NCBI GenBank assembly: GCA_937928545.1
Contig: CALGJQ010000013.1
Location: 1 to 64,000, forward strand
Direction: 5' to 3'
From: an uncultured Verrucomicrobiales bacterium
Lineage (GTDB): Bacteria; Verrucomicrobiota; Verrucomicrobiia; Verrucomicrobiales; Akkermansiaceae
DNA length: 64,000 bases
Part shown: in pieces, positions 1,407 to 28,399 of the stretch
How the letters are laid out: each line of letters starts with the position of its first letter
How positions within the stretch are numbered: position 1 is the stretch's first letter
The notes under the pieces: generated by a model
Told to the model about the DNA's origin: nothing
Seen by the model: the letters and a program-made list of their open reading frames with translations, nothing else
The model's database searches: none
Position numbers and translations under genes: made by a program

Positions 1407-3533
1407 ATGGCCGACGACAAACCAAAAAAAGACTCCAAGGATGATGAAGTTCTCGATCTCTTGAGCGAGAAGCCCAAGCCCTCACGTCGTGAGCGGCAGC
1501 GTCAGGAGGCGTCCAAGGTTCAGACTGTGGATGATAAAAAGAAGGCGGCTTTGGATCTCGGGATTGAAGAGGATCAGCCTAAGAAGAGCACGGTCCGTAA
1601 AACCGAGAAATCGGGTAAGAAGGTTGTTCCGAGTATTTCCAATCGTTCGGAAAAAAAGGTGGATCCTGAGTTTGCGAAAACGCCACCACCTGCCGATCCA
1701 CCACCACCGTCAGAAGCCGCTGGGGAAGGCGATGATGGGGACGAAGATTCTGACGGGAACGTCATTAGCATTAAGCCGCCGATCATTGTAAGCAATCTTG
1801 CTGAGAAAATGGGTAAGCTGCCCTTCGAGATCATGGCCGATCTTATCAAGCTGGAGGTTTTTGTAGCTCCGACGCAAGCAATTGAGCCTGAGATTGCCGA
1901 AAAGGTCTGCGAGGCTCACGGTTTTGTCTTCGAGCGCGAGAAGCGTGAAAAGGGGAGTGGTGTTCACAAAGAGGTTGAGGTCTTTGAGGAGCCGGAGGCT
2001 GCTGAAGAAGAGCCGGAGGAGCAAATGGCTTACCGCGCTCCTATTATTACTTTCATGGGGCACGTCGATCACGGCAAGACCTCGCTTCTGGACTACATTC
2101 GTAAGGCCAAGGTGGCTAATGGTGAGGCTGGAGGCATCACGCAACACGTGGGGGCTTACAGTGTGAAGCATGGTGAGCGAAGCGTTACCTTCCTCGATAC
2201 TCCGGGCCACGCCATCTTTTCAAAGATGCGTGCTCGTGGCGCTGATGTGACCGATATTGTCGTCGTGATTGTAGCTGCCGATGATGGCATTATGCCGCAG
2301 ACCGAAGAGGCGATTAAGCACGCAAAAGCGGCTGGGAAAACGATCATCGTCGCGATCAATAAAGTCGACCTTCCGGCTGCTGATCCCATGCGAGTCATGA
2401 CTCAGCTGATGGAGCATGAATTGGTTCCTTCCGAAATGGGAGGTGATACCGAGGTGATCAAAGTTTCCGCGACAACCGGCGAAGGGGTTGATGAGCTTCT
2501 CGAGCTAATGGCGCTGCAGGCTGAAGTCTTGGAATTGCGGGCAAATCCAAAAGCCAATGTCCGTGCTGCGGTGATCGAGGCGAGCGTTAAAGCTGGTCGC
2601 GGAAATACTGCGACTGTCATTGTCGAAAGTGGAACACTCAAAAATGGTCAACCCTTCATCTGTGGTCCCTATGCGGGTAAGGTGAAACTTCTTCTCGATG
2701 AAAATGGGGAGCAAGTGAAAGCAGCAGGTCCTTCGACTCCGGTTGAGGTTCTTGGTTTTGCTGAGCTGCCGAATGTCGGGGATTCCCTCGTTGGAATGGA
2801 AAACGAGCGCGCGGCGAAGAAGCTTTCGGCCGAGCGGATGGACGAGCAACGTAAGAGCCGTCTGGATGCTCCGAGAAAGAACCGTCTGGAGGATATGATG
2901 CAGGCGGTTTCTGGCGGAGGGAAAGCTCAGCTGAAACTCATCCTTCGCTCTGATGTGCAAGGAACTGCTGAGGCAATCAAGAATGCGATCCTTGAAATCG
3001 ATTCTGAGAAAGTGGAGGCGAATTTCCTGATCGCGGGAGCTGGTGCAATTAACGAATCCGACGTTCTCATGGCGAGTTCTGCAGATGCCATCATCCTAGG
3101 CTTCAACGTCAAGGTGGACGGTAAAGCGGTGAAAGCTGCTAAGGCCGAAGGCGTGCAGGTGAAGCTTTACTCGATTGTTTACGAGCTCATCGACCAAGTG
3201 AAAGACTCCATGCTTGGACTTCTTGATCCTGAGGTTCGTGAGACTGTCATTGGTCGCGCTTCGGTGAAGCAGGTCTTCAAGGTCAACGGTGGTCGTGCTG
3301 CGGGTTGTGTGATTAAGAGTGGTAAGGTCACTCGTAAGGCACATGCGCGCGTTCTTCGTGGTAAGCAGCCCGTCTTCGATGGCAAGATGTCAACGCTACG
3401 TCGTCTCACTGATGAAGTGGATGAGGTGAAGGAGGGAATCGAGTGTGGTATTCGCCTCGGAAGCTTTAATGACTACGAGGAAGGTGATGTCATCGAGTGC
3501 TACACGCTCGATAAGATCGACCAAACTCTCTAA
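1407..3533 (+). CDS. infB: Translation initiation factor IF-2
   Basis: IF-2 is the GTPase that brings fMet-tRNA to the 30S subunit and promotes subunit joining. The 708 residues have a charged low-complexity N-terminus (1-115, with a Pro-rich patch near 92-102), an IF2-N-like segment (about 122-175) and a G domain with G1 GHVDHGKTS (218-226), G3 DTPGH (about 264-268) and G4 NKVD (about 318-321). IF-2 domains II-IV with the C-terminal fMet-tRNA-binding barrel follow. It starts 55 bases after nusA and ends 3 bases before rbfA, so the three are likely co-transcribed. Nothing is missing compared with the family. Confidence 0.98.
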
Positions 3534-3536
3534 GAC

Positions 3537-3899
3537 ATGGCAAAGCGTCTCGATCGAGTCAACGAACTGCTGCGTCGCGAGATCAGCGCGGTGGTGCAGC
3601 GTGACTTCGAGTGGAATAATGCTCTTGTGACCATTACGGATGTGGACGTCACTCAGGACCTCAAAGAGGCGAAAGTCTTCGTAAGTATCCTTGGTGGTTC
3701 GACTCCGGGGATTTTGGATCAACTTTCGCGCAAGCGTGGCTTCATTCAAAGCAAAGTCGCCAAGCGAGTGACGATGCGTAGCACGCCCGTTTTGAGCTTT
3801 CGCGAAGATGCCTCGGCGGTGCGTGGAGTGGATGTGGTCAATCTCCTCGATGAGGTGGATAAGCTGCCGACCGCTCCACCTGAAGAGGATGATGCTTAA
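3537..3899 (+). CDS. rbfA: 30S ribosome-binding factor RbfA
   Basis: RbfA is a late 30S maturation factor binding near the 5' end helix of 16S rRNA. At 120 residues it is typical in length. The family pattern is clear: RVNELLRREISAVVQRDF at the start, then the beta-strand segment ITDVDVTQDLKEAKVFVSILG, and a C-terminal RSTPVLSFREDASAVRGVDV equivalent of the LxFxxDxSxxxgxri motif. ATG lies 3 bases after the infB stop, indicating translational coupling in the nusA-infB-rbfA operon. Confidence 0.95.
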   Translation: MAKRLDRVNELLRREISAVVQRDFEWNNALVTITDVDVTQDLKEAKVFVSILGGSTPGILDQLSRKRGFIQSKVAKRVTMRSTPVLSFREDASAVRGVDVVNLLDEVDKLPTAPPEEDDA

Positions 3900-3906
3900 G
3901 AGGACG

Positions 3907-4080
3907 CTAGTCTTCTTGAGATGAAGAATCTGAAGACATAGCATCGATTCCTGCGCCAGCTGCTTTTCCGGCGAGGCCGATCGTGGTAGTGGCGGCTTTC
4001 CCGACGACTTTGACGGGCGTGGAGATTAGAGAGCAAGATGAAAGGAGGCAGGCAAGGACAAGTGGGAGGAGGCGTGTCAT
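3907..4080 (-). CDS. Small lipoprotein, 57 aa, unknown function
   Basis: A 58-codon frame (with stop) fills the otherwise empty gap after rbfA. It begins MTRLLPLVLACLLSSCSLIS: a basic start, a hydrophobic stretch and a lipobox LSSC with Cys16, so it should be lipidated and exported. The mature part is Gly/Ala/Thr-rich (VKVVGKAATTTIGLAGKAAG) and ends in a Ser/Asp/Glu tail. This resembles small envelope lipoproteins that carry a short amphipathic V-x-x-x-G-x-A-x-x-T-T-x-x-x-A-G segment. It is convergent with rbfA, 7 bases away. No clear Shine-Dalgarno is visible. Function unknown; it is a coding call because of the intact lipoprotein signal. Confidence 0.72.
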   Translation of the reverse strand: MTRLLPLVLACLLSSCSLISTPVKVVGKAATTTIGLAGKAAGAGIDAMSSDSSSQED

Positions 4081-4132
4081 AAGAGAGACGGTAGTCGAAA
4101 TTGGGACTTAAAACAAGGCAAGGGGAGGGAAG

Positions 4133-5452
4133 CTATCGCCGGGTTCCTCGTTTGGGAGCTTGCTGGATTTGAGCTTGAGCTTCCGGGGAGAGACCACTGG
4201 TGAGAAGCCATGTTTTTGCCTCTTCTGGGCTGCGGCGGAAGTAGGCCTTTCCGACCCGGGTGAGAGATAGGGTTCTGATGGTCGGATCAGAGATGTCATT
4301 TGCCCAGGCGATGGCTGTTTCCGGATCTTGATAGGCGTATCCGATCGCGAAGCCTGAGATTGCCGAGTCGCGTTTCGGAGAGTTAGGCATCGACATGAGA
4401 TACTCTCCTGCGGCGACGGGGTCTTTATCCTCCCAATCTCCGAAGGCGGAATTGAGGCCAGCTTTTTGTCCTTCTCCTTCGGGGAGTTTGTCGAGCCAAG
4501 TTACGGCGGCAAGAGGTTCTTTTTCGGCCCATTCTTTGCCGACTTCTCTCACCGCACGAGCGGCGTAATCTTCGCTGGCAAATTTTTCGATCCATGCGGA
4601 GGAGGCTTCAGGGTCGGAGCGGACGAATCGTTCGGCGATCTCGTTCATTGCAGATCCTTTCATCGGGCCGTCATCGAGACTGGCGACCCAAAGCGAGGCT
4701 TCTTCATGACCACTGGAACGCAGGACTTCGTGCGCGACCGTTTCCATGAGGCGGGCGGCATTCTCCCGGCCTTCGGCGGCGAGTTGATAGACATAGCTGG
4801 CCGCTTCATCGCGATCACGGTCGGCAAGGCCGGCGACGATCCCGTTTTCAAGACGGGCTTTTTGCTCCGCCAGTTCTTCAGGGAGATTTCCGAGCATGGC
4901 GATGGCCCCTTCGGGATTGACGGTAGCCCATCCACTTATCAGTGACTGGAGATCCTTTTTATCGGCGGTCATGGCTTCGTTAAAAGCATCGGCTCCCGCG
5001 AGGGCGCCCCAAGCGTAGTTAAAGTCGCGCCATTCCTCTCGGTCAGCTCCAGCTGCGACGAGTTGATCGCGCATTGTCGCTACGTTTTCGGGGGTCATTC
5101 CTTCGAGCAATTTGCTAAAGGCGAGGCGTCGTTTTACAGGGTTAGGATCCTTAAAGGCTTCTTCGATCAAAGCCGCCATGCCATCGCTTGAAAAGGTGGA
5201 GGACCCGAAGATTCCGGAGATGAGATCGTGATCCTGATTCGCGGAAGGAGTGTTGCGGCCAGAGGGGCTGCGTCCTTGCTTGTTCTGAGAGGCAGCTCCA
5301 GAGGATCGAGTCGAGCCAGAGGAAGCAGAATAGCCTTCTTTTAGGCTTTGTTGGCTATCAGTTTCTCCCTCTTGCAACTGCTTGCCTAGAAGGAAGGCTC
5401 CAACAAGTCCGAGGGCCCAAAGGCCGTGCGTTTTCAACCTTCTTGTGCTCAT
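4133..5452 (-). CDS. Membrane-anchored helical repeat protein (DPxxAxxW repeats)
   Basis: 439 residues. A short cytoplasmic start (MSTRRLKT) is followed by one hydrophobic segment (about 9-24), then a Ser/Gln-rich linker to about 75. The rest is helical. From about residue 165 to the end I count eight units of roughly 30-35 residues built around the pattern D/E-P-x-x-A-x-x-W-x-x-x-L-P/D, for example DPEASSAWIEKF, EPLAAVTWLDKLPEG, DPVAAGEYLMSMPN and DPETAIAWANDISD. The repeat is TPR- or HEAT-like in spacing. I know of such proteins in Verrucomicrobia only as hypotheticals. A scaffold or binding role in the periplasm is inference. The gene stands alone, with a 99-base spacer to the next, divergent gene. 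Confidence 0.85.
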   Translation of the reverse strand: MSTRRLKTHGLWALGLVGAFLLGKQLQEGETDSQQSLKEGYSASSGSTRSSGAASQNKQGRSPSGRNTPSANQDHDLISGIFGSSTFSSDGMAALIEEAFKDPNPVKRRLAFSKLLEGMTPENVATMRDQLVAAGADREEWRDFNYAWGALAGADAFNEAMTADKKDLQSLISGWATVNPEGAIAMLGNLPEELAEQKARLENGIVAGLADRDRDEAASYVYQLAAEGRENAARLMETVAHEVLRSSGHEEASLWVASLDDGPMKGSAMNEIAERFVRSDPEASSAWIEKFASEDYAARAVREVGKEWAEKEPLAAVTWLDKLPEGEGQKAGLNSAFGDWEDKDPVAAGEYLMSMPNSPKRDSAISGFAIGYAYQDPETAIAWANDISDPTIRTLSLTRVGKAYFRRSPEEAKTWLLTSGLSPEAQAQIQQAPKRGTRR

Positions 5453-27346: not shown

Positions 27347-28399
27347 CTAAGCGACCACTACGGCGTGTTCCTCCGCGTTGGTGAGGACTCCGATTTCTTG
27401 GGCGATGGGAGCGCCATTGTCTAAGAGGGTGTCTTTCGCTTGCACGAGATCTTCGGGCTTCACGGCGAGGAGGAGGCCTCCGGAAGTTTGGGCATCGGCG
27501 AGGAGGACGTGGATTTCTTCGGCGACCTCTGAGCTGAAGGAGGTGAACTCATTGGCGAGGCGGAGGTTTTCATGGCTTCCTCCGGGGACACAGCCTTTTT
27601 TGATGAATTCGATCACGTCTGGATCGATGCTGGGGACGGCTGAGGAATCGATGCGAGCGGTGACATTGGACTCACGGCAGAGGTGGCTCAGGTGACCCAA
27701 GAGACCGAAACCGGTGACGTCCGTTCCCGCGCGGGTGAGGCCGAGGGCGGCGATGGCCGAGCCGGGGGTGTTGAGTGAAGCCATTTGCAGAGAGGCTTTC
27801 TTCTCGAGTTCTGCTGAGCAAATGCCGCGTTTGATGGCGGTGGAGATAATTCCGGTGCCGAGAGGTTTGGTAAGGAGGAGAATATCTCCGGCTTGGCCAC
27901 CGGCATTTGAGATGACATTATTGGGATCGACCGTTCCGGTGACGGAGAGGCCGTAAAGGGGCTCGGGGTTTTGCACAGTGTGGCCACCGGCGAGGGAACA
28001 ATTGGCCTCGGCGACTTTATCAGCGCCGCCTTTGAGGATTTGGTTGATGACATCGAGCGAGACTTCATCGGTCGGCATCGCGACGATGTTCATTGCGGTG
28101 ATGGGTTTTCCGCCCATGGCATAGACGTCGGAGAGGGAGTTAGCGGCGGCGATTTGACCAAAGAGGTAAGGGTCGTCGACGATGGGGGTGAAGAAATCGA
28201 GGGTTTGAACGAGGGCGACCTCGTCGTTGATGCGATAAACGGCGGCATCGTCAGAGCTAGCAGAGCCAATGAGGAGATTAGGGTCGGAGATGTTGGAGAG
28301 GCCACGCAAGACTTGCGTGAGTTCGGCTTGGCCGAGTTTGGAGGCTCACCCTCCGCAGGAGGCCAGTTCTGTTAAGCGTTTGATGTCTTCGCGACTCAT
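27347..28399 (-). CDS. selD: Selenide, water dikinase SelD, selenocysteine-containing (in-frame UGA)
   Basis: SelD makes selenophosphate from selenide and ATP. With UGA read as Sec the frame is 350 residues, starting at ATG 28397-28399: MSREDIKRLTELASCGGU, then ASKLGQAELTQVL. Sec18 and the following Lys21 occupy the place of the catalytic Cys17/Lys20 of E. coli SelD. The rest is canonical: DDAAVYRINDEVALVQTLDFFTPIVDDP, ANSLSDVYAMGG, LAGGHTVQNPE and GTGIISTA. An automatic caller would start at a TTG or Met after the UGA (about 28309) and lose the active site. Its presence implies selA, selB and tRNA-Sec elsewhere in the genome. Confidence 0.9.
28346..28348 (-). other. UGA selenocysteine codon of selD, with a possible SECIS hairpin just downstream
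   Basis: Codon 18 reads TGA on the minus strand in the context TCC-TGC-GGA-GGG-TGA-GCC-TCC-AAA. Starting 11 bases after the UGA, TCGGC-CAA-GCCGA can form a 5-bp hairpin, in the distance range of bacterial SECIS elements, though the 3-base loop is not the textbook loop. A second hairpin (ACGCAA-GTC-TTGCGT) lies a little further on. The position at the SelD active site is the strongest argument for Sec. Confidence 0.8.

Follow-up and report, generated by a model that had tools for sequence, protein, structure and literature searches.

The window, meaning the whole 64,000-nucleotide stretch of DNA analysed here, carries a selD gene on its minus strand (Table 1). Its reading frame runs from ATG 28399 to TAG 27347 and contains a single internal stop, a TGA taken here as a residue; 5′ of this TGA, the open frame extends over 37 codons, back to TAA 28462. 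The translated gene scored 387 bits against the NCBIfam SelD profile TIGR00476 (cut-off 125) and 359 bits against NF002098 (cut-off 299), bearing out the assignment to SelD in the earlier note, and the SelD profile match spans the TGA, covering residues 8–317. Among solved structures, E. coli SelD (PDB 3u0o) was the best sequence match (2.9e-80). This alignment is ungapped up to the site and pairs residue 18 with Cys17 and Lys21 with Lys20. Frame and alignment together confirm what had been proposed from the letters alone, namely that reading through the UGA at codon 18 joins both parts of the gene in one frame, that this codon occupies the catalytic Cys position and that the essential Lys follows three residues later. 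A standard-code ORF finder placed the start of its longest ORF (320 aa) at TTG 28309, 3′ of the active-site loop, so the expectation that annotation without selenocysteine (Sec) decoding would lose the active site also held.

Table 1. Features of the selD locus, in window coordinates
Feature	Position	Strand	Basis
selD, selenide,water dikinase (selenophosphate synthetase), 350 aa including predicted selenocysteine 18	27347..28399	-	Profile score, 3u0o alignment, orthologues sharing the TGA
Codon of Cys15, first residue of the CGGU (CxxU) motif	28355..28357	-	Cys in 87/88 Sec-clade sequences
UGA codon 18, predicted to be read as selenocysteine; catalytic Cys17 position of E. coli SelD	28346..28348	-	3u0o alignment; TGA in 92/101 homologues
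Predicted bacterial SECIS hairpin with an 8-bp stem and its GUC loop 33 nt 3′ of the UGA	28302..28320	-	Conservation, covariation, bSECIS model fit
5-bp hairpin of the earlier note, TCGGC-CAA-GCCGA; not conserved outside near relatives	28323..28335	-	30/88 intact

The internal TGA is shared widely across the order. Among 101 SelD genes of Verrucomicrobiales from many genera, drawn from homology-search matches and not a random sample, codon 18 is TGA in 92 and Cys in nine, which supplied the alignment with Cys homologues that had been called for. Among named organisms in the collection searched, the closest relative is the cultured Roseibacillus persicicus (70% identity; L064), which has the same UGA, the other relatives being mostly Akkermansiaceae and Verrucomicrobiales metagenome-assembled genomes; the TGA is kept at the genus, family and order levels. 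Across the whole phylum, which was thinly sampled, fewer genomes had SelD, and most of these genes lacked an internal stop. Against five relatives of the genus, selD yielded dN/dS values of 0.05–0.15, which are rough because dS approaches saturation in some comparisons, and the gene is under purifying selection. A homology search of the genome found no second SelD, the remaining match being weak and distant (33 bits).

Downstream of the UGA lies a conserved hairpin, UCACGCAA-GUC-UUGCGUGG, whose loop carries a G. The apical stem of six core pairs is complete in 78 of 88 Sec-clade genes. Since this region also codes for protein, a stricter synonymous-codon control was used, in which each codon was swapped among synonyms according to the gene's own usage; this resampling predicts 2.3 complete six-pair stems per 88 genes, with a maximum of nine in 2000 trials. 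Across 32 distinct sequences, 96.9% of cells are paired and both sides vary in five of the eight pairs. The covariation score of the stem was reached by no shuffle, and sliding the partner strand destroys the pairing. Some compensatory changes alter the protein: ACG..CGT to GTG..CAC converts Thr/Arg to Val/His, and ACT..AGT converts Arg to Ser. The published bacterial SECIS (bSECIS) model prescribes a loop of 3–9 nt, a stem of 4–16 bp, a G at loop base 1 or 2, a distance of 16–37 nt from the UGA and a minimum free energy of at most −7.5 kcal/mol (PMC13188914). The hairpin (−8.9 kcal/mol) lies within all four constraints of this model, answering the call for a bSECIS search after the UGA. Hairpin energy has a median of −10.2 kcal/mol in the Sec clade, compared with −4.8 to 0 in the nine Cys genes, and the complete stem is absent from all nine Cys homologues.

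The earlier note had pointed to a different, 5-bp hairpin nearer the TGA. That structure exists, but it is not the functional element, a role that falls to the longer hairpin beyond it; with no convincing covariation and an intact form in a minority of Sec-clade genes (Table 1), it was rejected as a conserved element and is probably incidental. Four divergent Sec-SelDs of the order, a second type with the active-site sequence TCGU-AAKIDPVG (L179–L182, from G181, G247, G050 and G178), lack this hairpin at the usual position; they must therefore have their element at another site or in another form.

Rfam and tRNA scans of the window were empty; the selenocysteine machinery sits on other contigs of the genome, a 75-contig assembly that is 91.75% complete. 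Profile searches recovered selA (C5:13277-14623; 480 bits) and selB (C64:6184-8091; 319 bits), both above the curated cut-offs. A tRNA-Sec gene (C29:64671-64761) scored 59.2 bits against a gathering score of 47, and ARAGORN classed it as SeC with anticodon TCA (UCA). All three components are therefore encoded in the same genome, and the absence of selB or tRNA-Sec that would have told against a selenoprotein was not borne out. The tRNA 2-selenouridine synthase gene selU is also present (334 bits), so selenophosphate has two uses.

Targeted family searches, to which the survey of further selenoprotein genes was confined, identified at least seven more genes in which an in-frame TGA falls on a redox position: two peroxiredoxin genes (TPGU, a TxxU motif), four thioredoxin-like genes (WUxxC, a UxxC motif) and one SelW-like gene (CEQU, a CxxU motif). 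By prediction, then, the genome encodes several selenoproteins. No internal stop interrupts the formate dehydrogenase homologue, and the family search returned no match to AhpD-like CMD proteins in the genome.

Some observations were made around the machinery genes themselves. At the selA locus (L044, G000:C5:10500-16000), a 126-aa SelA fragment (894-1274 minus) is encoded 3′ of the complete selA (2760-4136 minus), with a Fic-family gene between the two, and is evidently a partial selA duplication. At the tRNA-Sec locus (L201, G000:C29:60500-65800), a tyrosine recombinase-like ORF of 595 aa (2318-4105 minus), with DUF6538 near its N-terminus and a C-terminal HTFRH motif, lies directly 3′ of the tRNA gene; a resolvase-like serine recombinase ORF (398-1033 plus) is found nearby, and upstream there is a RES/Xre toxin-antitoxin pair. 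An integrated element may have used the tRNA-Sec gene as its attachment site, and no direct repeat marking the ends of such an element was found within 5.3 kb. In three genomes from another family of the order (G040:C1, L024/L031; G043:C97, L023; G047:C337, L026), tRNA-Sec immediately precedes selD in the same orientation.

In a tree of 100 of the examined SelD proteins, the Cys genes form two groups. One pair (G051/G078) is nested inside the Sec clade and, judged by this placement, represents a Sec-to-Cys change with hairpin loss; G051 retains selA, selB and tRNA-Sec despite its Cys-SelD. The seven remaining Cys genes cluster apart on long branches, and their placement is uncertain. Some genomes of the order (G053, G073, G077, G163, G183 and others) encode SelD-like sequence within uninterrupted ORFs of 740–810 aa, which probably represent the oxidoreductase (Ndh)-SelD fusions already known.

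Taken together, the machinery, the SECIS-type hairpin, the Cys homologues, the purifying selection and the lack of a second SelD support the proposal of the earlier note that this SelD is itself a selenoprotein, and we put the probability that the gene specifies a functional selenoprotein form of SelD, with Sec predicted at codon 18, at roughly 0.97. Were the TGA instead a genuine stop, or a mutation in a decaying gene, the locus would be a pseudogene or would yield a product from the internal TTG that lacks the active-site loop, and the standard-code ORF from TTG 28309 is indeed open for 320 aa. Against this stand the same-codon TGA in many genera with coding conserved on both sides of it, a dN/dS of 0–0.06 over the first 31 codons, the compensatory changes that maintain the hairpin and a genome without another SelD to take over. 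That 91 further genes of the order keep the TGA excludes chance, sequencing error and decay, and we regard the probability of a stop or decayed gene as negligible.

It is also highly improbable that the UGA is read as another amino acid, whether Trp or Cys via a near-cognate tRNA or through a changed genetic code. UGA readthrough does occur in other organisms; nothing specific to this locus favours it, and the presence of tRNA-Sec, selA and selB argues against it, as does the alternation of UGA with Cys, accompanied by hairpin loss where Cys replaces UGA. A changed code was rejected on the grounds that UGA terminates 10 of the 42 long ORFs in the window and that TGG is used 254 times in them.

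Under the selenoprotein reading, SelB carrying selenocysteyl-tRNA-Sec would bind the hairpin at 28302–28320 during translation, and selenocysteine would be placed at codon 18, within the flexible, selenide-handling loop near the N-terminus. The finished SelD, the cell's selenium-activating enzyme, would use ATP to form selenophosphate, feeding SelA, which makes selenocysteine on tRNA-Sec, and SelU, which makes tRNA selenouridine. Because selenophosphate feeds SelA, SelD would depend on its own product. The gene, its TGA, the covarying hairpin, the machinery and the further TGA-containing genes are seen in the sequence, whereas we infer Sec insertion, SelB binding and catalytic activity from what is established about this pathway.

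SelD as a selenoprotein is textbook knowledge. It forms the second largest prokaryotic selenoprotein family (PMC13188914), and Sec occurs in 19% of the prokaryotic SelDs of a reference survey, always at the same position (PMC4561486); the present case is therefore ordinary in kind, a further Sec-SelD of well-known arrangement. It shares the enzyme, the Sec position and a bSECIS just 3′ of the UGA with the prokaryotic Sec-SelD/SPS proteins of Pasteurellales and others, and differs from them in lineage and in the Cys of its CxGU motif (PMC4561486). Compared with E. coli SelD, which is not a selenoprotein, the Verrucomicrobiales protein has Sec18 in place of Cys17 and retains the Lys20 equivalent, whereas Gly14 aligns with Cys15 and the second cysteine, Cys19, two residues after Cys17, is replaced by Ser. 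An open-access literature search returned no paper describing a selenoprotein SelD from Verrucomicrobia.

The CxGU motif is a mildly unusual, distinctive detail of this otherwise ordinary case. In marine Global Ocean Sampling data, about 5.6% of the single-domain Sec-SelDs were reported to have CxxU (PMC2398784). The Verrucomicrobiales SelD shares CxxU at the active site with these marine CxxU/CxxC proteins, yet here it has no fusion to an NADH dehydrogenase domain, and CxGU is nearly invariant across the whole clade, 87 of 88 members having the Cys three residues before Sec. Cys15 and Sec18 might form a reversible selenenylsulfide, making SelD redox-switched or allowing selenium to be taken from a protein donor, a clade property that most SelDs lack; we consider this doubtful, and the motif is a minor clue to the route by which SelD receives selenium.

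The gene is a clean annotation case, in which standard pipelines would place the start after the active site, and the Sec clade supplies a large, strongly covarying bSECIS set. In Verrucomicrobiales, here in one group whose members are largely uncultured, the results show that Sec-SelD is old and conserved, with at least one reversion from Sec to Cys in which the hairpin was lost.
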